This document shows positions 6,818 to 22,405 of a stretch of 64,000 nt of DNA, piece by piece. Under the pieces are notes generated by a model, which saw only the letters and a list, made by a program, of their open reading frames with translations, was not told the origin of the DNA and searched no databases. Positions within the stretch are counted from its first letter, which is position 1. Every line of letters starts with the position of its first letter. A program made the translations under genes and the position numbers. The stretch spans positions 9,168,501 to 9,232,500 of the forward strand of contig NZ_CP071091.1 in assembly GCF_017301635.1 (NCBI RefSeq). The letters run 5' to 3'. Origin of the DNA: Myxococcus landrumus (GTDB taxonomy: Bacteria; Myxococcota; Myxococcia; Myxococcales; Myxococcaceae).

Positions 6818-7456
6818 TTACTCGATGCTGGGGCTGGGGCCTCCCATGCCGGGGCACTTGCCGGGCTTCATCTGGTCGGCGGCGTTGTGGATTTCGCTGC
6901 TGAGCTGCTGCTGCTTCTTGGGGTCCAGCGCGCTGTAGACGATGACGACGCCGTCCGGCGTGTCCTGGATGCTGGCGCTCGCGGGCATCGTCGGCGCGCC
7001 CGCCATGCCGGAGCCGCCCATGCCCGTCTCGTCCAGGCCGTCCTGCTCCTCGAACTGGCCGATGCCCAGGTCTTCCCGCTCCGCTTCTTCCATGGGCGTC
7101 GCGTTGCCGGAGCGCTGCTGGGTGGCGGTCGCCTGTTCTTGCAGCATGCGGCGGCTGCGCTGCTGGAGCTCGGACACCTGCGTGGGTTCCAGCGTGCTGA
7201 GCGTGAGGGCCACGCCTTCAGGCGTGTCCTCGGCCTTGGCCGTGGTGCCGGGGAGGGACATAGGGCAGTTGTCGTCGGAGACGCTCTTGGCCTTGGACTT
7301 GGGTTTGGGGGCCTGGGCCGTGGGCGCCGATGAAGGCGGCTGCGTGGTGGCCTGTGGCTCGGCGCCCTTCGATTGCGAGCCCCGCTTGGAACAGCCGGCC
7401 GAGAAGCAGAGCACCGCGGACACGGCGAGAATCGACGGAAGCTTGAGCAGATGCAT
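6818..7456 (-). CDS. lipoprotein with an internal duplication, function unknown
   Basis: A 212-residue product with a lipoprotein signal (MHLLKLPSILAVSAVLCFSAGC, lipobox ending at Cys22). The mature part is rich in Gln, Pro and Ser. It contains two related modules: one reads EDTPEGVALTLSTLEP…VSELQQR, the other QDTPDGVVIVYSALDP…QQLSSEI, each beside a Cys-Pro pair (NCPM and KCPG). I know no named family for it. The duplication suggests two copies of a small alpha/beta unit joined by a charged linker. Start ATG 7456 coincides with the signal peptide. It is convergent with the TetR gene and divergent from the Cys-rich lipoprotein at 7670. Confidence 0.75.
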   Translation of the reverse strand: MHLLKLPSILAVSAVLCFSAGCSKRGSQSKGAEPQATTQPPSSAPTAQAPKPKSKAKSVSDDNCPMSLPGTTAKAEDTPEGVALTLSTLEPTQVSELQQRSRRMLQEQATATQQRSGNATPMEEAEREDLGIGQFEEQDGLDETGMGGSGMAGAPTMPASASIQDTPDGVVIVYSALDPKKQQQLSSEIHNAADQMKPGKCPGMGGPSPSIE

Positions 7457-7669
7457 GGTGGACGTCCCCCCTGCGCATGAGCCTTCGCGCGGAAGGTGGG
7501 CAGGGGGGCCAGACGTCGGCAGTGCATCTCGTTAGAGGCACACGCCGTTGGCCCCTCCCTGGGGAAAGAGCTGTTCATTCAAAAGAAGACACTCCGGGCG
7601 GTGCGGGGCGCCGACGCATTGGATGTCATTGGCTAGGCTTTGGCCCTTCTCTCTCCCAAGGAGTGTCAG

Positions 7670-8122
7670 ATGCGCAGCTGGACTGGAGCGCTGGTGGCTG
7701 TGATGTCATTCGCGGTGCTGGCGGCGTGTGGCGGTACCGGTGGCGCGGACTCGGCCGAGGAGCCGCTGGGACAGCAGGAGGCGGGCATTGACCGGTGTGG
7801 CAACGGCATCTGCTACGCGACGGAGGTGAACAGCTGTCCCGCGGACTGCAACTACGGGGGCTACTGCGGTGACCAGGTGTGTGCTGGGCCCGAGACGTCG
7901 AACGGCTGTAATGACTGCCAGGGAGGAGGGGGCTGCTTCGCGCCGCAATCCCAGGCACCCGTTGAGTCGGAAATGCTGATTGACCGGTGTGGCAACGGCG
8001 TCTGCTATGCGACGGAGGTGGGCAACTGCCCAGCGGACTGCAACTACGGGGGCTACTGCGGCGACGGCGTCTGTGGGGGCTCTGAACCCAGCGTCTGCCC
8101 CAATGACTGTCTGGGGTGCTGA
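7670..8122 (+). CDS. Cys-rich lipoprotein with two tandem modules
   Basis: A 150-residue exported protein. Start ATG 7670 is chosen over 7640 because AAGGAG lies at 7658–7663 and the signal peptide MRSWTGALVAVMSFAVLAAC begins there, giving a lipobox. The mature protein holds two nearly identical modules of about 35 residues. Each begins DRCGNG, continues CYATEV, then CPADCNYGGYCGD, and ends with a VC…E segment. Cys spacing is kept between them. Similar CGNGxC…E…C…DC motifs occur in many myxobacterial secreted proteins, where they probably form disulfide-knotted units. Function is unknown; surface display is likely. Confidence 0.72.
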   Translation: MRSWTGALVAVMSFAVLAACGGTGGADSAEEPLGQQEAGIDRCGNGICYATEVNSCPADCNYGGYCGDQVCAGPETSNGCNDCQGGGGCFAPQSQAPVESEMLIDRCGNGVCYATEVGNCPADCNYGGYCGDGVCGGSEPSVCPNDCLGC

Positions 8123-8136
8123 GTCGCCCCAAGGGC

Positions 8137-8167
8137 AAGGTGCCCGGCGAACAGCTCCGGGCGCCTT
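8137..8167. terminator. hairpin terminator between convergent genes
   Basis: Arms AAGGTGCCCGG (8137–8147) and CCGGGCGCCTT (8157–8167) form an 11-bp stem with one G·U pair and a nine-base loop, placed exactly between two convergent stop codons. It can serve both strands. A long T-run is absent. Confidence 0.55.
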
Positions 8168-10010
8168 ACCGTGACTCAGGCCGGACGTAGACGACGACTT
8201 GCGGCGTCTCGTCCAGGTACAGGCCCATGGTGGGCGTGCGCGTGCCGAACGCCTGCCAGGTGTTGAACTCGAACTCTCGAAACTCCTGGTGGTACTGGTA
8301 CGCGACGATGTCCGCGTCGAAGGGACTGCCCACCGCGCGCAGGTCCGGACGCAGCATGCCGTTGTGTTGGTAGTCGCGGAACGAGCCGCCGTGCACCTCA
8401 TGCAGGAACAACCGCGCGCCCGGCTTCGCGTGCTCGTTGATCCACGGGAGCACGCCCGTGACGTGGCTGGACCAGAACTGCCGCTGCATCCCCATCGTCG
8501 CCGCGCCCGGCAGTCCGCCCGCGAGCTCCGAGTACGCCGCTGTGCCGTAAGGGAACACGCGCGCCGAGTACACCAGCGCGGGCGCCAGCAGCACCGCGAA
8601 CACGGGCACGGACACCGCCAAGCCCGGCAATGAGGGCCAGCGAGCGCGCAGCCGCTCCACCAAGGCCGCGCAGCCTCGGGACACCGCCTGGCCCGCGAGC
8701 AGGCCCAGGAACACCATGGACGGGAACCAATGCTTCACGCCGCCGAAGTGCGGCACCTGCGGATGGCTGATGACGAGGATGGACGCCATCGCGTTCACGC
8801 CCACCAGGGCCTCGGCCATCGTCACCGGAGCCACCCACGCGCGGGTCTTCTCGAACTGGCCCATCAGCACCCGAGCCGCCAGCGCGGCGAAGCCCGTCAC
8901 CATCGGCACGAAGAGGCTGGTCGGCACGGTGAGCGCGGTCTTCACCAGCACATAGGCCAAGGGGAAGGGCGGCTCGCGAAGCAGCGTGCCCAGATAGAAC
9001 CAGGCGTAGTGATTGTGCTTCGCGTGGAAGGCCAGGTACCAGGCCGTGCGGTCCACCGGCTGGTGCCAGAGATAGGGCCAGTGCAGATAGAAGATGACCG
9101 GTCCGAGCACCGCCATGGCCGCGATGGGGACCAGCGCGCGTGTCACCCGCGCGTTGACCTTCTCCAGTCCCTTGAGCGTCCACGCTCCGCCCGCGGCCAG
9201 ACTCACGAAGAGCAACGAGTGGGGGCTGAGCAGGAAGAACTTCCGCTGGAAGCCCTCGCCTCCGCCCAGGGACAGCACCAGCAAGCCGTAGAGCACCGCC
9301 ACCGAGGCGAACACGCCCACGAAGCGCAGCAGCCACGACCGTGTCTCGGGCTCACCTTCGCTCGCCGACCACGCGCGCCACAGCGCGAAGGGCGTCAGCA
9401 CGAAGGGCAGGAACAAGGCGTTGTGCTTGGCGGCCAGCGCCAATCCAAAGGCCACACCACACGCGATGCCCCACCGCGTGTCCTCCAGCGCGCGCCAGAA
9501 GCAATACACGACGAGCAGCCACAGCGCCGCCACGGCCAGGTCGAAGCACGCCAGCTCCGAATTGAAGTACTGACGCGGCACCAGCATGAAGGCGAGCGCG
9601 GCGAACAGTCCCGCGGTGCGGCCATACAGCGCGCTGCCCAGCAGGAAGCTCAGCGCGGGCACCAGCGCCGCCATGGCGAAGGCCGGCAGCCGGAATGCCG
9701 TGGCCGAGCGCATCCATCCCAGCGTGTCGTGGAAGAGCAGGTGGCTCAGTCCGAACAGCGTCTTCATCAACGCGGGGTGCTCGTGGTTGTAGTCCCACGC
9801 GCGGACGATGGCCGCGTCCGTCAGCGCTCTCGCTGGTGAGTGGAAGAGCTGCCGGAACCAGCCCGAGTAGCTCTCCGCCGCGGCGAAGTAGACGCTCTCG
9901 TCGCGCGTGTAGCCCACCGCGGACTCCGTCAGCCACAGCGCCACGAAGGCCAGCGTCCACAGCGCCCACGCCGTGTACTTCTCCTCGCGAGTGGCGGGCC
10001 TGCCCGTCAT
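8166..10010 (-). CDS. PMT/ArnT-type integral-membrane glycosyltransferase
   Basis: A 614-residue polytopic membrane protein with about a dozen hydrophobic segments. The first periplasmic loop carries YTRDESVYFAAAESY, whose acidic pair matches the Asp-Glu site of dolichyl-phosphate-mannose mannosyltransferase and ArnT-like GT-C enzymes. HPALMKTLFGLSHLLF nearby is also typical. Such enzymes move a sugar from a polyprenyl-phosphate donor to a lipid or protein outside the inner membrane. Start ATG 10010 overlaps the stop of the upstream gene by 4 bp (ATGA), so the two are translationally coupled. The longer frame to 10055 is rejected for that reason. It is the last gene of the carD–carG transcription unit. 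Acceptor and donor are unknown. Confidence 0.83.
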   Translation of the reverse strand: MTGRPATREEKYTAWALWTLAFVALWLTESAVGYTRDESVYFAAAESYSGWFRQLFHSPARALTDAAIVRAWDYNHEHPALMKTLFGLSHLLFHDTLGWMRSATAFRLPAFAMAALVPALSFLLGSALYGRTAGLFAALAFMLVPRQYFNSELACFDLAVAALWLLVVYCFWRALEDTRWGIACGVAFGLALAAKHNALFLPFVLTPFALWRAWSASEGEPETRSWLLRFVGVFASVAVLYGLLVLSLGGGEGFQRKFFLLSPHSLLFVSLAAGGAWTLKGLEKVNARVTRALVPIAAMAVLGPVIFYLHWPYLWHQPVDRTAWYLAFHAKHNHYAWFYLGTLLREPPFPLAYVLVKTALTVPTSLFVPMVTGFAALAARVLMGQFEKTRAWVAPVTMAEALVGVNAMASILVISHPQVPHFGGVKHWFPSMVFLGLLAGQAVSRGCAALVERLRARWPSLPGLAVSVPVFAVLLAPALVYSARVFPYGTAAYSELAGGLPGAATMGMQRQFWSSHVTGVLPWINEHAKPGARLFLHEVHGGSFRDYQHNGMLRPDLRAVGSPFDADIVAYQYHQEFREFEFNTWQAFGTRTPTMGLYLDETPQVVVYVRPESR

Positions 10011-11011
10011 CCCTTCACTCCCACCACCGGCTCCAACGCCAGCACGTCCAGGCACACCTGCCGCCGGTCCGGATTCTCCGAGCGGACCCAGACCTTCACG
10101 GTCCGCGCCTCACCCGGAGGCAGCAGCACCTCCGACTTCTTCACGCCTTCCTGTCCAGGAGGTATCGCCACTTCCACGAGGGGCGCGCCGCTGGCTGCAT
10201 CCTCCACGCCCAGGAACGCCGTCGTCAGGTGCGCGTCCCGAGCAAACGCGTACTCGAAGATGATGCCGCCCTCGAGCCTCAGCCCCACGCCACCGGGCAC
10301 ACCGTCGAACTCCGCCACCAGCCGGCGCGCTCCACCAGGCGCGGGCATCCACAGGCAGTGGCGCGGCTCGTAGAAGATTTCGTGCCACTCGGTGGCCACG
10401 TACACATTCCCGGGCCCCGGACAGCGGTGCGCCGTCCCGTCGAAGGGGCAGGGCGCTCGCGTGCCATCCGATGACTCCAGATACACACGCGCTCTTGCAA
10501 CCAGGTCCGCCGCGTTGAACCGTCGCGGACGATGACGGCCGTTCTCGTAGAGGCTCAGCGTCAGCGTGCCTTCCTGGACGGCCGGGCTCACGGCGCGGCG
10601 CTCGGGCAGGAAGTCCTTCAGGAACGCGGCTTCGTCGGAGCGAGGCAGCTCCGGCTGGCCCAGCACCCAGACTCGTGGATGCGCGGACAGGTCATCGCGG
10701 TCCGAGCCGAGGTAGCCGTAGACGGGCAACCCGGGAGGAACGAAGAGGCGGGCGCGCTCGGCCCACCAGGGGAAGAGCAGGACGGCGTCACCGGGACGGC
10801 CTTCCTCCTTCAGTCGCTCGGCCACCGCGCGGTAGCTCTCCTCGGAGGGGAGCTTGCCGGGCAGCCGGAGGTGGAAGACGAGACACAGGAGCGCGACCAG
10901 CAACAGCCCCCCCAGCTCCAGGAGGGGCAGCGCGCGTTGGATGCTAGGACTTCGCAAGGCGAATCTTCTGCTCGCTCTTTTCCCGGCAGAAGGTGCAGAA
11001 GATGGGCTCAC
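10007..11011 (-). CDS. membrane-anchored protein of unknown function, partner of the PMT-type enzyme
   Basis: A 334-residue protein with one transmembrane segment near residues 29–47 (ALPLLELGGLLLVALLCLVF) after a basic N-terminus, so most of it should be periplasmic. The first half (GDAVLLFPWWAERARLFVP…VYGYLGSD…RVWVLGQ) looks like the soluble periplasmic domain found at the C-terminus of some GT-C glycosyltransferases. The second half is beta-rich with four Cys and resembles a carbohydrate-binding sandwich. Its 4-bp overlap with the glycosyltransferase suggests the two act together as a split enzyme; this is inference. The start is uncertain: ATG 11011 overlaps the end of carG by 68 bp, and no better start was seen before the membrane segment. 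Confidence 0.68.
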   Translation of the reverse strand: MSPSSAPSAGKRASRRFALRSPSIQRALPLLELGGLLLVALLCLVFHLRLPGKLPSEESYRAVAERLKEEGRPGDAVLLFPWWAERARLFVPPGLPVYGYLGSDRDDLSAHPRVWVLGQPELPRSDEAAFLKDFLPERRAVSPAVQEGTLTLSLYENGRHRPRRFNAADLVARARVYLESSDGTRAPCPFDGTAHRCPGPGNVYVATEWHEIFYEPRHCLWMPAPGGARRLVAEFDGVPGGVGLRLEGGIIFEYAFARDAHLTTAFLGVEDAASGAPLVEVAIPPGQEGVKKSEVLLPPGEARTVKVWVRSENPDRRQVCLDVLALEPVVGVKG

Positions 11012-11456
11012 CCTGGGAGAACGACGGCGTCCAGGGCGGGTACATCGAGCACCGCGGGTCCAGGCAGTGGTGCAGCTCCCACAGATGTCCCAGCTGGTGC
11101 AGCGCCTGGCGGGCCACTGGCTTGAAGCCGACCTCCAGGTCCTTGTGCGGCTGGGTGGTGATGACGGAGCGGTCCTTGCCCTGGCGCGCGAAGCCCGGCG
11201 TGGGGGCCGTGCCGCTGGGCAGCTCGCGCTCCTTGAGCTTGCGCGAGGTGAGCAGCAGCACCTTGTCGTCCTGATAGGCGCGAATGCCCTTCACCTGCTC
11301 CAGCAGTTTCTCGGCGTCCACCGGCTCGCCCAGGCCCGGAGGCATCTCGGCGGAGCCAGAGTGCTCGCTGCCCACGCCGAACGCCGTGTAGAGCGTCCGG
11401 TTGAGCTTGGCGAGCTGCTTGTCGTCGAAGAGGTCCAGCGTCACGACGCGAATCAC
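10944..11456 (-). CDS. carG: CarG-like zinc protein (archaemetzincin fold, catalytic Glu replaced)
   Basis: A 170-residue protein with the archaemetzincin metal motif. H120, H124, H130 and C131, then C136, M138, C154 and C157, correspond to HExxHxxGxxHC…CxM…CxxC. The catalytic Glu is Gln (CAC-CAG at residues 120–121) and the usual Gly is Glu127, so proteolysis is not expected. In Myxococcus xanthus the protein next to CarD, CarG, has this feature; it binds zinc and works with CarD as a transcription factor rather than as a protease. Here it lies 44 bp downstream of carD on the same strand, which supports the name strongly. Its 3' end overlaps the next gene, so the operon continues. Confidence 0.88.
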   Translation of the reverse strand: MIRVVTLDLFDDKQLAKLNRTLYTAFGVGSEHSGSAEMPPGLGEPVDAEKLLEQVKGIRAYQDDKVLLLTSRKLKERELPSGTAPTPGFARQGKDRSVITTQPHKDLEVGFKPVARQALHQLGHLWELHHCLDPRCSMYPPWTPSFSQGEPIFCTFCREKSEQKIRLAKS

Positions 11457-11500
11457 GGGGCGTCACCTCGGCGCAAAGGGCCGGCTTCCAATGTCGACTG

Positions 11501-12469
11501 TCAGTCCTCTCCCCCCTCGGCGGGCTTCGCCTTGGGAGGACGGCCGCGCTTCTTGGGCGCGGCGGGTTCGGCGCCAGCCACCTCGGGCGGCTTGGGCTTG
11601 GGAGGACGGCCACGCTTCTTGGGGGCGGGAGCCTCCGCACCGGGCGGAGGTGCCTCCGGCTTGGGCTTCGGAGGACGGCCGCGCTTCTTGGGCGCGGCGG
11701 GCTCCGCGCCTTCCTCGGCGGCGGGCTTCTCCTTGGGAGGACGGCCGCGCTTCTTCGGCGTGGACTCCTCGTCGGACTTCTCCTCGCCTTCCTCGCCCTC
11801 TTCCTCGGAGGAGCTCTCCTCGTCGGAGGACTCCGACTGCGGCTCCTCGTCCGAGGGCAGGTCCAGGTCTCCGTCGAGGCCCAGGAGGTCGCCCTCCAGA
11901 CCCAGGTCGTCCTCGTCTCCTCGCGCGAACTCGGCGGCGGTGCGCTTGGGGCGCTCGCGGCCGGGCGGGAAGAGGACGATGTCGATGGCGTCCTCGGCGT
12001 TGACCTCGGCGGTGCCGAGCGCGGCGGCGACCTCCGACACCAGCAGGTGCCGGGCATTGTCGTACAGCTCGCGCTCCTTGGTGGGCAGCGGACGCAGCTC
12101 GCTGAGGACCTGGAGGTCCTTCACCACCTCGGCCAGACCCAGGATTCCGCCCTGCGTCATGCGGTCCAGGTTGGTGCGGGCACGCTGCTTCCAGTCGAGG
12201 TCTGCCTTGTCCCCGTCCGCGCGAAGGAATGAGAAGACGCTCTTCACGTCCTCGGGGCCAGCCACCTTTCGCACACCAATGGCCGCGACCTTGGCCTGGG
12301 GCACCATGACAACGGCGCCATCCTCCTCGCGACGCATGGTGACGAAGACGAGCTTCTGTCCCGCCACTTCCTTCGTGTCGATGGCGGTGACGCGGCAGAC
12401 ACCCTGATTCGGATAGACGACCCGGTCGTCGACCGCGAGTTGTGTGAGTGACGCGGACCCTTCAGGCAT
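11501..12469 (-). CDS. carD: CarD, HMGA-type global transcription factor
   Basis: A 322-residue protein with the full CarD layout. Residues about 10–165 form the CarD/CdnL RNA-polymerase-interacting domain (VDDRVVYPNQGVCRVTAI). Residues 184–235 are strongly acidic. The C-terminus carries four AT-hooks, KKRGRPPK, at Arg241, Arg263, Arg286 and Arg308. In M. xanthus CarD binds the RNA polymerase beta subunit and AT-rich DNA, and with CarG it controls light-induced carotenoid synthesis and fruiting-body development through ECF sigma factors. The acidic plus hook tail separates it from the shorter, ubiquitous CdnL. ATG 12469 has GAGGGGG upstream. The repeated hook codons make a local DNA repeat at 11520–11760. 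Confidence 0.95.
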   Translation of the reverse strand: MPEGSASLTQLAVDDRVVYPNQGVCRVTAIDTKEVAGQKLVFVTMRREEDGAVVMVPQAKVAAIGVRKVAGPEDVKSVFSFLRADGDKADLDWKQRARTNLDRMTQGGILGLAEVVKDLQVLSELRPLPTKERELYDNARHLLVSEVAAALGTAEVNAEDAIDIVLFPPGRERPKRTAAEFARGDEDDLGLEGDLLGLDGDLDLPSDEEPQSESSDEESSSEEEGEEGEEKSDEESTPKKRGRPPKEKPAAEEGAEPAAPKKRGRPPKPKPEAPPPGAEAPAPKKRGRPPKPKPPEVAGAEPAAPKKRGRPPKAKPAEGGED

Positions 12470-12541
12470 GTCCCCCTCGCGGGCAGGTAGACGTCAAAGG
12501 AGGCCCGGGCTTAGCACCGAGTCGCGTTCGACGCCACGAGA

Positions 12542-12754
12542 TTACCGGTGAACCGACGCCGTGCGTTCGCCCGTTCGCTGAGCCTCCAACAAGATGCCCA
12601 GCAACTCCTTCTGCCGCGCGTCGAGCGCCGCCTCCACCTGCGCCTGCGTCGGCTCTACCTCGGTGCTCCCCGGTCGCGCATCCACCCGGCCGGACAGTCC
12701 CACCGTTCCCAGGACCACGGCCCCGACCACGGCCACTGCCACCAGCTTCAACAT
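12542..12754 (-). CDS. small exported protein of unknown function
   Basis: A 70-residue product with an N-terminal hydrophobic stretch (MLKLVAVAVVGAVVLGTVGL) that is either a signal peptide or a membrane anchor, followed by a short helical, Gln/Glu-rich tail (EPTQAQVEAALDARQKEL). An excellent ribosome site, AAGGAGGG, lies just upstream of ATG 12754, which favours a real gene over the overlapping plus-strand frames. It is between carD and the kinase gene, same strand. No family recognised. Confidence 0.6.
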   Translation of the reverse strand: MLKLVAVAVVGAVVLGTVGLSGRVDARPGSTEVEPTQAQVEAALDARQKELLGILLEAQRTGERTASVHR

Positions 12755-12840
12755 GTTGAGCCCTCCTTGTTGCCCAGGGTAGGGGGCTCGCCGGGGGGAT
12801 CAACTTTTCGGCGACAGGCCGCTGCACGGCTGTAGCGCGC

Positions 12841-15516
12841 TCACGGGGTCGGGCGGCCGTGCCGGTGCCCCGCCGCCGGCATCCCCGCTTCGGAGGGGCG
12901 GACGACGGGGACGATGTCCACGAGGAGGGTGCCGGTGTTGTCGGCCAGATGGTCGTCCGGGAAGGAGAGCTGGAGCCACGACGCGCCGCGGAGCCGGGAG
13001 GGCTGGCCCACTTCCAGGAGCGCCAGGCCGCTGGGCGAGCCTTCGGGGCCCGGGTCCGTTCCCACCAGGCCGAGCACTCGCCCCACGGGGCCGCCGCCCA
13101 GGCCTCGGGTTCGGGCGGGCTCGGCGGTGTAGCGCAGCACGACGTCGTAGGTGGTGCCCGGGTCCAGGGCGTGGACGACGAAGCGGTCCGAGCGCGCGAG
13201 CTTCACGGCGTGGTGGCGCGCGTCCAGGCGGAACGGCGGGTAGCTGGGGCCGCCGAGCTCCCGCAGGTGGACCTGGAGACCTCCCCGGTTGTCCTCGCGG
13301 TGGGCGTCGAGGACGAAGACGAACAGGCTGGAGGCGTGGCGGATGAGCTGCTCCTCGGGGCCGAGGACGCCGAAGGACTCGTGGGCGGGCAGGTTCTTGT
13401 CGCCTTCGAGGAAGTAGCCCGCGTGCTCCACGGACATGGGGCCGCCGAGCGACATCCGTCCCTCGGTGTGAACCAGGTAGGTCCGAGCCGGGTCGAGTGG
13501 GACGCGCGCGGCGGAGGACACCGGGACGCGGAAGGAGTGGCTCACGGCGGAGATGCGGAAGCCGCCCGGGGCCCAGTTCGTGTCCTGGAGGGGTGGGGTG
13601 TTCGCGGCCTTGGCGGACGCGGTTCCCGATGCGGAGGAGGTGTTGATTCGTGGACGAAGCCGCGCGTGGACGGCGAGGGTCGAGCCTCGTTCGGCGCGGA
13701 CCACCTGACTCCACGGGACCATGCCGGGAATCTGGATTTCGAGCAGGTGCTCACCGTCGGCGGGCAGGTGCGTGAGGAGGGCGGGCGTGACGGAGTCGAG
13801 CGGGCGCCCATCGACGCGGATGGATGCGCCCGGAGGTGAGGAGCTGAGCTCCACGGAGAAGGTGCCGTTGCGGCCGAGGACCATCACGACGAGGACCGCG
13901 CCGAGGGCCGCGAGGACGGGTGCGCCCAGGGCCGCGAGCCGGAAGCCCAGGCGGGACGGTGGTGCTTGTGTTGGAGCCAGGTCCGGCGGGGGCGGGACGA
14001 GGGCTGTTGGTGAAGGCAGTCCCGTGGAGGGATGAGCGGCTGGCGGAGGCACTCCCGTGGGAGGACTCAGGAACGGGGAGGGGCGCGATGGCTCGGAGGC
14101 CGTCAGCGGGGGCTCGCCCGTGGGTGGCGGCGAGTGCGGATGCGACGCAGAGAGAGCCGTGGGGAGCGCTCCCTCCGTCGACAGCGTCGAGCGCGAAAGT
14201 GATGGCGCGGAGGGCGTCGGAGGCGCTGCTTCTGTCAGCGACGTCGAGCGCGGTTGTTGCTCCGGCGATGACTCAACGTCTGTCCGCGGAGCCTCGGCGG
14301 CTGTGTCCGAATCGGGCACGGCGGGGATGGGCTGAGTGGTGCGCTCCTTGTGTCCCCTGCTGCTGGACGCGGTCTCCGCGCCGGGTGACGAGAGCACATC
14401 GCTCAAGGCGTCGATGCGATGCGCGTCCGGTGCGGGGACAGGCTCGGTGATGCGGTCCCCGCGCGAACCGTCGGGCACGGGCGCATGGAAGACTCGGCGC
14501 TCCGAGGATGTGCGCGTCCATCGGGCCAACTGCGAGAGGAACTCCCGAGGCAGCAACACGGGCCGCCCGTCCGCGACGAGCTCCGCCTCGAACAGGTAGC
14601 CCATGAAGTGGGCCAGCGCGCTGGGCGAGATGTCCGGCGTGGTGGTGTTCAGGTACCGGGTGAGGGACTCCGCGAACAACTCCGCGGAGGCGTAGCGCTG
14701 CTCGCGCTCCACGGCGAGCGCGGTGAGGAGGATGCGCTCGAGCGCCGAGGGAATGTCCGGCGACAGCTCCCGAGGACGCGGGAAGTCCCCCAGGGCAATC
14801 TTCCGCATCACATCCGCGGCATCCCCCTCGAAGGGCCGGCGTCCGCACAGCGTCTCGTACAAGAGCGTGCCCGCCGCGAAGATATCGGCGCGAGCATCCA
14901 GCTCCCGTCCCCGGGCCTGCTCCGGCGCGAAGTACGCGTACTTGCCCATTCCATCGGGCTCATCGGACATGAGCCCGCCCGCCAGCCGAGCCCGAGCGAT
15001 GCCGAAGTCCACCAGCTTCACCTGTCCCTCGAAGCTGAGCAGCACGTTCTGCGGACTGACGTCGCGGTGGATGATGTGCAGGGGCCGGCCCCGGTCATCC
15101 AGGCGTGTGTGGGCATAGGCCAGCCCCTTGAGCACCTCGGCCGTCATCAGCAGGGCCAGCGGCTGCGGCAGGGTGTAGTGGCCCTTCTCGCGAGCTCGTC
15201 GCAGCACGCGCGACAGCGGGTGCCCGTCCACCCACTCCATGGCGATGAAGTACTGGCCCGCCACTTCACCGAAGTCGAAGACCTGGGCGATGTTGCCGTG
15301 ACTCAGGCCCGCGGCGATGCGCGCCTCGTTGACGAACATCGAGACGAAGGCACTCTTGTCCGCGAAACCCGGGAGGATTTTCTTGATGACCACCGGCTTG
15401 GTGACGCCTGCCATGGCGGTCATACGTGCGCGGAATATCTCCGCCATGCCGCCCGTCGCGATGCGCTCGAGCAACGTGTACCTGCCGAAATCGAGCCCTT
15501 CGGGCGGGTGCTCCAC
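12841..15516 (-). CDS. Ser/Thr protein kinase with PEGA domain
   Basis: An 891-residue Hanks-type kinase. The N-terminal kinase domain (about residues 12–285) has the Gly loop IATGGMAEIF, VVIKK with the ATP-binding Lys, HRDVSPQN catalytic loop, DFG (VDFGIARA) and APEQARG. A Pro/Ser/Thr-rich linker of about 235 residues follows, then a transmembrane segment near 523–547. Outside the membrane a PEGA domain (SSPPGASIRVDG, from about 553) and a roughly 250-residue beta-rich sensor domain complete the chain. The start is GTG 15516, with AGGAG upstream. Such kinases are very numerous in myxobacteria. The external domain should sense an envelope signal. No substrate or phosphatase lies nearby, so its pathway is unknown. 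Confidence 0.92.
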   Translation of the reverse strand: MEHPPEGLDFGRYTLLERIATGGMAEIFRARMTAMAGVTKPVVIKKILPGFADKSAFVSMFVNEARIAAGLSHGNIAQVFDFGEVAGQYFIAMEWVDGHPLSRVLRRAREKGHYTLPQPLALLMTAEVLKGLAYAHTRLDDRGRPLHIIHRDVSPQNVLLSFEGQVKLVDFGIARARLAGGLMSDEPDGMGKYAYFAPEQARGRELDARADIFAAGTLLYETLCGRRPFEGDAADVMRKIALGDFPRPRELSPDIPSALERILLTALAVEREQRYASAELFAESLTRYLNTTTPDISPSALAHFMGYLFEAELVADGRPVLLPREFLSQLARWTRTSSERRVFHAPVPDGSRGDRITEPVPAPDAHRIDALSDVLSSPGAETASSSRGHKERTTQPIPAVPDSDTAAEAPRTDVESSPEQQPRSTSLTEAAPPTPSAPSLSRSTLSTEGALPTALSASHPHSPPPTGEPPLTASEPSRPSPFLSPPTGVPPPAAHPSTGLPSPTALVPPPPDLAPTQAPPSRLGFRLAALGAPVLAALGAVLVVMVLGRNGTFSVELSSSPPGASIRVDGRPLDSVTPALLTHLPADGEHLLEIQIPGMVPWSQVVRAERGSTLAVHARLRPRINTSSASGTASAKAANTPPLQDTNWAPGGFRISAVSHSFRVPVSSAARVPLDPARTYLVHTEGRMSLGGPMSVEHAGYFLEGDKNLPAHESFGVLGPEEQLIRHASSLFVFVLDAHREDNRGGLQVHLRELGGPSYPPFRLDARHHAVKLARSDRFVVHALDPGTTYDVVLRYTAEPARTRGLGGGPVGRVLGLVGTDPGPEGSPSGLALLEVGQPSRLRGASWLQLSFPDDHLADNTGTLLVDIVPVVRPSEAGMPAAGHRHGRPTP

Positions 15517-21484: not shown

Positions 21485-22405
21485 GTGCTCGTGGGGGCCT
21501 CGGACTTCCAGCACCACACCGTCTTGCTGCGTGAAGCGGTCGAGTTGCTTCGGCCAGGAGCGGGGAAGGTGATCATCGACGGCACACTGGGTGGTGGTGG
21601 CCACACGGAGGCGCTCCTGGCTCAGGGCGCGTCCGTGGTGGGCGTCGACCGCGACCCGGTGGCGCTCGCGGCGGCCACCTCACGCCTGGGGCCCAACCCC
21701 CGCTTCCAGGGGCGCGAGGGCAACTTCGCGGACCTGCCGCGCGTGGCCTCGGACCTGATGCCCGTGGATGGCGTGCTGGTGGACCTGGGCGTGTCCTCGC
21801 CCCAGCTCGATGTCGCCGAGCGCGGCTTCTCCTTCTCCAAGGATGGCCCGCTGGACATGCGGATGGGGGCGGACGGCCTCACGGCCGCGGAGCTCATCGC
21901 CTCCACCGACGAGCAGGAGCTCGTGCGCATCCTGAAGGAATACGGTGAAGAGCCGTTCGCGCGGCCCATCGCCCGCGAGCTCAAGCGCGCGCTGCCCACG
22001 CGCACGCTGGAGGCGGCGGAGGTCGTCAAGCGCGCGGTGCCTCGCAAGGCGTGGCCCACGCGCATCCATGTCGCCACCCGGACGTTCCAGGCGCTGCGCA
22101 TGGCGGTCAACCAGGAGCTGGAGGCGCTGGACTCGCTGTTGTCCGCGCTGCCCTCGCTGCTGAAGGTGGGGGGCCGCGCGGCGGTCATCTCCTTCCACTC
22201 GCTGGAGGACCGCCGGGTGAAGGAGGCGTTCCGGACGCTGGAGGGCCGCTGCACCTGCCCGCCGGGCCTGCCCATCTGCGCCTGTGGCTACGTGGGGAAC
22301 TTCACCGTCGTGACGAAGAAGGCCGTGTCCGCCTCGGAGGAAGAGGTGGAGGTCAATCCCCGCTCTCGGAGCGCGCACCTGCGCGTGGTGGAGAAAGTGC
22401 GATGA
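21485..22405 (+). CDS. rsmH: 16S rRNA m4C1402 methyltransferase RsmH (MraW)
   Basis: A 306-residue S-adenosylmethionine methyltransferase that N4-methylates C1402 of 16S rRNA. Motifs are [14 protein letters not shown] (SAM-binding motif I), [21 protein letters not shown]…PLDMRM, and the C-terminal [13 protein letters not shown]…K, all family hallmarks. GTG 21485 directly abuts the preceding stop; GTG 21491 is an alternative. The stop overlaps the ftsL start (ATGA), so the genes are translationally coupled. Confidence 0.96.

Follow-up and report, generated by a model that had tools for sequence, protein, structure and literature searches.

The closest described system is the carD-carG pair of Myxococcus xanthus. 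In the passages of the literature available to us, carD is translationally coupled to carG, and the two genes form an operon that is restricted to relatives of M. xanthus (PMC8156234, PMC9304148). A review passage further describes carD as constitutively expressed and the CarDG complex as affecting at least 12 ECF pairs besides CarQ-CarR (PMC8156234), and the glycosyltransferase named in the excerpts on carD and carG is orf6 of the carotenoid cluster (PMC8156234, PMC9304148). The coupling of carD to carG is already published. The titles, abstract openings and passages that we searched contain no link between carD or carG and the two genes that follow them here, one unnamed ("gene 3") and one encoding a PMT-type glycosyltransferase ("PMT"), and neither the extension to four genes nor its deep conservation appears in the passages on carD-carG; primary papers may mention the downstream genes.

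We analysed a stretch of 64,000 bp from Myxococcus landrumus (hereafter the window; positions 9168501-9232500 of a single 10.37-Mb contig), whose genus and family we designate g1 and f1. Re-reading the sequence bore out the gene order, the strand and the end coordinates, 8166 and 12469, given in a first-pass annotation, as well as a 4-bp overlap between gene 3 and PMT, formed by the ATGA at 10010-10007. In the order of transcription the block reads carD, carG, gene 3, PMT (Table 1), with 44 bp between carD and carG. It is possible that the 70-aa open reading frame upstream of carD is the first gene of the transcript.

Table 1. Features of the carD-carG locus, in window coordinates.
Feature	Coordinates	Strand	Description
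70-aa ORF	12754-12542	minus	hydrophobic N-terminus, apparently exported; 72 bp upstream of carD
carD	12469-11501	minus	322 aa; CarD_TRCF_RID and CarD_C domains, acidic stretch, four RGRP AT hooks
carG	11456-10944	minus	170 aa, GTG start; Peptidase_M54-like, Q replacing the catalytic E
carG stop/gene 3 start overlap	10957-10944	minus	14 bp; CarG Leu codon CTT yields TTG
gene 3	10957-10007	minus	316 aa, TTG start (most likely); anchor-like helix, small alpha/beta part, beta-sandwich
PMT	10010-8166	minus	614 aa, ATG start; GT-C glycosyltransferase

CarD scored above cut-off with two profiles (39.5 bits against a cut-off of 23, and 75.7 bits against 23.1), and its four RGRP AT hooks were found in all 12 loci of g1, the window included. 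RGRP AT hooks were absent from 29 of 30 CarD proteins outside f1, and also from some genera within f1. The AT-hook tail is younger than the four-gene order. The CarG motif HQx2Hx2Ex2HCx4CxMx15Cx2C, in which Q replaces the catalytic E, occurs in both the window and M. xanthus AM003; the motif as given in a review passage has x16 where the window has x15 (PMC8156234). A search with this motif missed 40 of 81 CarG proteins because its first His is not conserved beyond close relatives.

The first-pass annotation proposed that carD and carG are co-transcribed with the two genes that follow, and named gene-order comparison as a test by which the proposal could be refuted. We found the order to be conserved. 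Among 145 genomes of the window's order, carG orthologues (E < 1e-20) were detected in 139 and gene 3 in 128, and the two lie within 600 bp of each other on one strand in 122 genomes (122 of the 128 with gene 3), as tallied by eye from two match tables. The remaining 23 genomes comprise 17 with no match to gene 3 (six of them also without a carG orthologue, and several incomplete), two in which carG and gene 3 are separated by ~4.5 and ~4.9 kb, three in which they are on different contigs, and one in which the contig breaks off 0.8 kb from carG and gene 3 is found on a different one. In one genome (G037) gene 3 adjoins carG and PMT is on another contig, which counts against the four-gene block. 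We then considered 80 loci, hand-chosen from 80 of the 145 genomes and covering 44 of 46 genera. Profile matches on the strand of carG were found for carG in 80 loci, carD in 79, gene 3 in 72 and PMT in 70; several loci stop at contig ends, which lowers these counts and, above all, those for flanking genes. The four genes occur in the same order, with the same TTG junction, in M. xanthus AM003, and in the same order in a genome from another order of the class (G163).

As a control for the synteny left by descent alone, we searched the same loci by tblastn for the neighbours of the block in the window. In the 30 loci outside f1, carD and carG were each detected in 30 and gene 3 and PMT each in 24, while the four nearest downstream genes (encoding a Cys-rich protein, a lipoprotein, a TetR protein and a UGT) were detected in none and the upstream kinase gene in one; the most frequent of 13 tabulated flanking genes, encoding an acyl-CoA dehydrogenase, was detected in seven. 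Counted over 44 genera, gene 3 and PMT were each found in 38, each of the four downstream genes in one and the kinase gene in 17. Flanking genes are thus lost while the four-gene block stays, which we count in favour of an operon. By tblastn, 15 of the 80 loci (genera g1, g5, g6 and g8) have a match to the 70-aa open reading frame in the corresponding position. A gene for MraW, on the plus strand at 21485-22405, is ~9 kb from carD in the window, and in loci of g7, g8, g18, g23 and g29 MraW is likewise found no more than ~6 kb away from carD. One sequence titled Comamonas sp. KCTC 72670 (BNCN01000001.1) carries a Myxococcus-type locus, and its title is probably wrong.

The junctions point the same way, although one of them differs from its first description. 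Gene 3 had been assigned a start at ATG 11011, which would give a 68-bp overlap with carG. The codon at 11011 is GTG, and the long overlap is very unlikely: four of the 12 g1 loci have no start codon near -68 (in one of the 12 an ATG is found at -65 instead), whereas all 12 carry a TTG at -14 (10957-10955). We rejected the start at 11011 on these counts. Of the 70 loci that have both carG and gene 3, 31 (16 genera) offer the -14 TTG, 16 offer a -4 start and 23 offer neither. The TTG is held within a CarG codon that specifies Leu in 56 loci, and this codon is CTT in 31 of them (16 genera); across the same genes, CTT accounts for 36 of 1822 Leu codons (2.0%). This comparison, like the counts of starts, draws on related genomes rather than independent observations. 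In the other 25 loci the codon is CTC (17) or CTG (8); the lack of a -14 TTG in these loci follows by construction, and the comparison of CTT usage with 2.0% does not. When codon conservation in carG was set against the expectation from codon bias, the last five codons gave a ratio of 1.53 (14 genera), the interval just before them 1.10, and positions elsewhere in the gene 0.97-1.25; over the span of the supposed 68-bp overlap, synonymous conservation showed no particular rise. Judged from these patterns, the most likely start of gene 3 is TTG 10957, which gives a 14-bp overlap with carG. Between gene 3 and PMT, 60 of 67 loci offer a -4 start, and between carD and carG 33 of 78 do so. Since the starts of gene 3 and PMT overlap the preceding stop, their translation is probably coupled to that of the gene before.

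From order, overlaps and conservation, all computed directly, we infer a single transcript and translational coupling. Order and strand are conserved over many genera, with overlapping or short junctions, which strongly suggests co-transcription of the four genes and makes it very likely that carD, carG, gene 3 and PMT constitute a single operon. A terminator search of positions 7400-13000 returned two sites, against 1.8 expected from shuffled sequences; one is inside gene 3 and the other on the opposite strand, so that no junction has a terminator-like site, as the first-pass annotation had also observed. Within the same positions, a search limited to consensus sites found no sigma-70-type promoter. 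We propose that the operon was inherited from the ancestor of the class containing M. xanthus, that carD and carG are promoter-proximal, and that the same message yields gene 3 and PMT, which would be made whenever CarDG is made. Gene 3 and PMT might instead be served by a promoter of their own inside carG and be co-transcribed with carD and carG only in part. Synonymous divergence is lower in carG than in gene 3 in all 13 pairs compared, and lower than in PMT in 12 of the 13, as an embedded signal could cause, but codons throughout carG share in the excess conservation, with only the last five standing out clearly, and the consensus-based search found no promoter-like site in the region. We regard an internal promoter as improbable; a separate promoter is possible in some genomes, given that the gap between carD and carG is variable and that 23 of 70 loci have neither the -14 nor the -4 start for gene 3.

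The two downstream genes had been described as a surface-glycosylation pair. That description holds in part: by profile and predicted fold PMT is a GT-C glycosyltransferase, but gene 3 is not detectably one. PMT matched the Pfam families PMT_2 (43.5 bits, cut-off 26.1) and PMT (27.3 bits, cut-off 22.7). Its structure was predicted with intermediate confidence (mean pLDDT 69.9), and GT-C chains led the matches in the PDB: Pmt4 (Z 17.5; rmsd 4.6, 380 aligned), chains of the yeast oligosaccharyltransferase (Z 16.4; rmsd 8.7 with 409 aligned, and 5.2 with 362) and ArnT (Z 16.0; rmsd 4.5, 329 aligned), the scores for ArnT and the protein mannosyltransferase being within ~1.5 of each other. An acidic DE pair after the first membrane helix is a GT-C motif; the corresponding D37-E38 of PMT is DE in 35 of 36 aligned proteins, and the motifs as a whole (DE 37-38, EHP 77-79, K83, PPFP, FGGxKHW and others) show few changes in 33 of the 36. 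The three aligned proteins from genera g31 (probably Anaeromyxobacter) and g36 have lost most of the GT-C motifs. By a simple Nei-Gojobori count on chosen pairs, dN/dS for PMT was 0.22-0.62 in five g31 pairs and 0.12-0.24 in eight other pairs. In six loci of these genera (L089-L093 of g31 and L103 of g36) the PMT gene is open and in place, and is either decaying or changing function. Two loci (L150 and L157) have tandem PMT-like genes after gene 3. The most likely activity of PMT is the transfer of a sugar, drawn from a polyprenyl-phosphate carrier on the outer side of the inner membrane, to an envelope glycan, lipid or protein.

Searches of Pfam and NCBIfam with gene 3 returned no family above cut-off. 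We considered and set aside two assignments. For a known domain recognisable by sequence, four weak Pfam matches, each confined to one of 37 members, and PDB profile matches to MazG (E 0.0087 and 0.013) were taken as chance; and a second glycosyltransferase found no support in the family searches or in a profile comparison with PMT (hhalign probability 0.2). The structural model of gene 3 (mean pLDDT 83.1) has a long N-terminal helix (residues 5-30), a small alpha/beta part and a beta-sandwich (~142-314). The beta-sandwich (taken as ~141-314) has the CBM51/CBM27-like fold: chains of CBM51 were matched at Z 10.9-11.8 (the best, 11.8, with rmsd 3.0 and 134 aligned), and CBM27 chains ranked after them at Z 9.1-9.8. 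Gene 3 is thus probably a membrane-anchored protein with a predicted carbohydrate-binding-type domain; because the beta-sandwich fold is common, sugar binding and a position outside the cytoplasm are both predictions for this protein. The fold class was also computed directly; the location of the pair, their partnership and the substrate are inferred. Gene 3 is most likely a membrane-anchored accessory subunit of PMT, whose beta-sandwich would hold the acceptor or the product glycan for the enzyme. Taken as a whole, we give a probability of about 0.65 to the explanation that the four genes form an operon, that PMT is an envelope GT-C enzyme and that gene 3 is its accessory subunit; the motif loss in g31 and g36 and the modest confidence of the PMT model count against it.

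To place the locus in a wider context, we counted matches in 195 genomes of the phylum. Gene 3 was found in 161 of them, made up of 128 of the 145 in the order, one of the two in the rest of the class and 32 of the 48 outside the class. The corresponding numbers for CarG (E < 1e-20) were 139 of 145, one of two and none of 48, with weaker matches, in the range of archaemetzincins, in four of the 48. We fetched 18 of the 32 loci outside the class. PMT adjoins gene 3 in 16 of these 18, where CarG is absent, which argues that the two belong together; they occur across the phylum without CarG, so that the glycosyltransferase pair predates its tie to CarDG. In 10 of the 18 loci, gene 3 is directly preceded by a barrel-like gene, a reading based on a signal peptide and a C-terminal aromatic residue, for which the Pfam search gave no match. 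In one family outside the class (f11), seven of nine genomes have an ECF sigma gene, a putative anti-sigma gene, a gene for a 159-aa protein with a signal peptide and a barrel-like gene, and this four-gene leader is directly upstream of gene 3 in five of the nine. The ECF sigma assignment comes from Pfam for one member and from BLAST for the rest, and that of the putative anti-sigma from a membrane helix together with, in one member, a Cys motif at the N-terminus, its Pfam search being without a match. Conversely, carDG occurs without gene 3, nearby or elsewhere, in family f9 (both loci), genus g23 (all three loci) and one additional genome (G030), and another genome (G140) also has carDG without gene 3.

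That carDG heads a conserved row with a GT-C pair hints at a link between this regulator and surface sugars. Each half occurs without the other, however, and this weighs against a strict functional tie. The operon may have been kept simply because the pair was parked behind a constitutive promoter, with no functional tie to CarD and CarG; separation would then be rare because the pair would lose both promoter and ribosome supply. This is a reading of why the operon is kept, and is compatible with the four-gene explanation above. It is consistent with the 32 of 48 genomes outside the class that have gene 3, none with a CarG match below 1e-20, with the genomes that have carDG alone (f9, g23, G030 and G140), with g31 and g36, which keep carDG beside a degenerate PMT, and with the constitutive expression of carD described in the review passage (PMC8156234). 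The block has nevertheless outlasted its neighbours over many genera, longer than chance parking suggests, and we put the chance that this reading is right at slightly less than even. Alternatively, the pair may belong to an envelope response in which CarDG acts by way of ECF sigma factors, and the shared message would itself have been selected. The influence of CarDG on at least 12 ECF pairs besides CarQ-CarR, described in the same review passage (PMC8156234), is in keeping with such a role, as is the ECF leader of f11, a family without CarG orthologues. Yet the ECF link was seen in that one family, a search of the other fetched loci outside the class with the f11 ECF sequences gave no match, and CarDG is kept in g31 and g36 beside an enzyme that, from its motif loss, is probably inactive. 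We consider selection for a shared message rather unlikely, and passive retention behind the carD promoter somewhat more likely.

A broader proposal is that, in the Myxococcota, the GT-C enzyme and its separate sugar-binding subunit make up an envelope-maintenance module under ECF-type control, exerted through the leader in f11 and through CarD-CarG in the class of M. xanthus. This is speculative, and we doubt it. If it were true, CarD-CarG would at root regulate envelope glycan and would have been put to use in carotenogenesis later, and polar carD insertions would owe some of their phenotypes to the glycosyltransferase. More generally, CarD-CarG is a much-studied regulator for which a conserved operon partner offers a lead to its physiological root, that lead being an envelope glycosyltransferase probably made from the CarDG message. 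Because an insertion in either carD or carG may also shut off the glycosyltransferase, developmental and surface phenotypes call for in-frame alleles.

The locus can be compared with three known systems. It shares with the M. xanthus carD-carG operon, as far as the available passages describe it, the two genes, their order and coupling, the four AT hooks and the inactive metzincin-like motif of CarG; those passages describe two genes, whereas here two more follow in the block. PMT shares its fold with GT-C enzymes such as the protein mannosyltransferases (Pmt), ArnT and STT3, and matches Pfam models PMT and PMT_2, but the fold alone does not settle which type of GT-C enzyme it is. Finally, in mycobacterial EmbC, as described in the part of the source available to us (PMC3044687), a GT-C enzyme is likewise served by a beta-sandwich of sugar-binding type; the binding domain of EmbC is built in, whereas here the predicted beta-sandwich is on a separate, probably membrane-anchored chain. 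Gene 3 thus represents a protein family without a Pfam model that resembles a stand-alone sugar-binding subunit of a GT-C enzyme.
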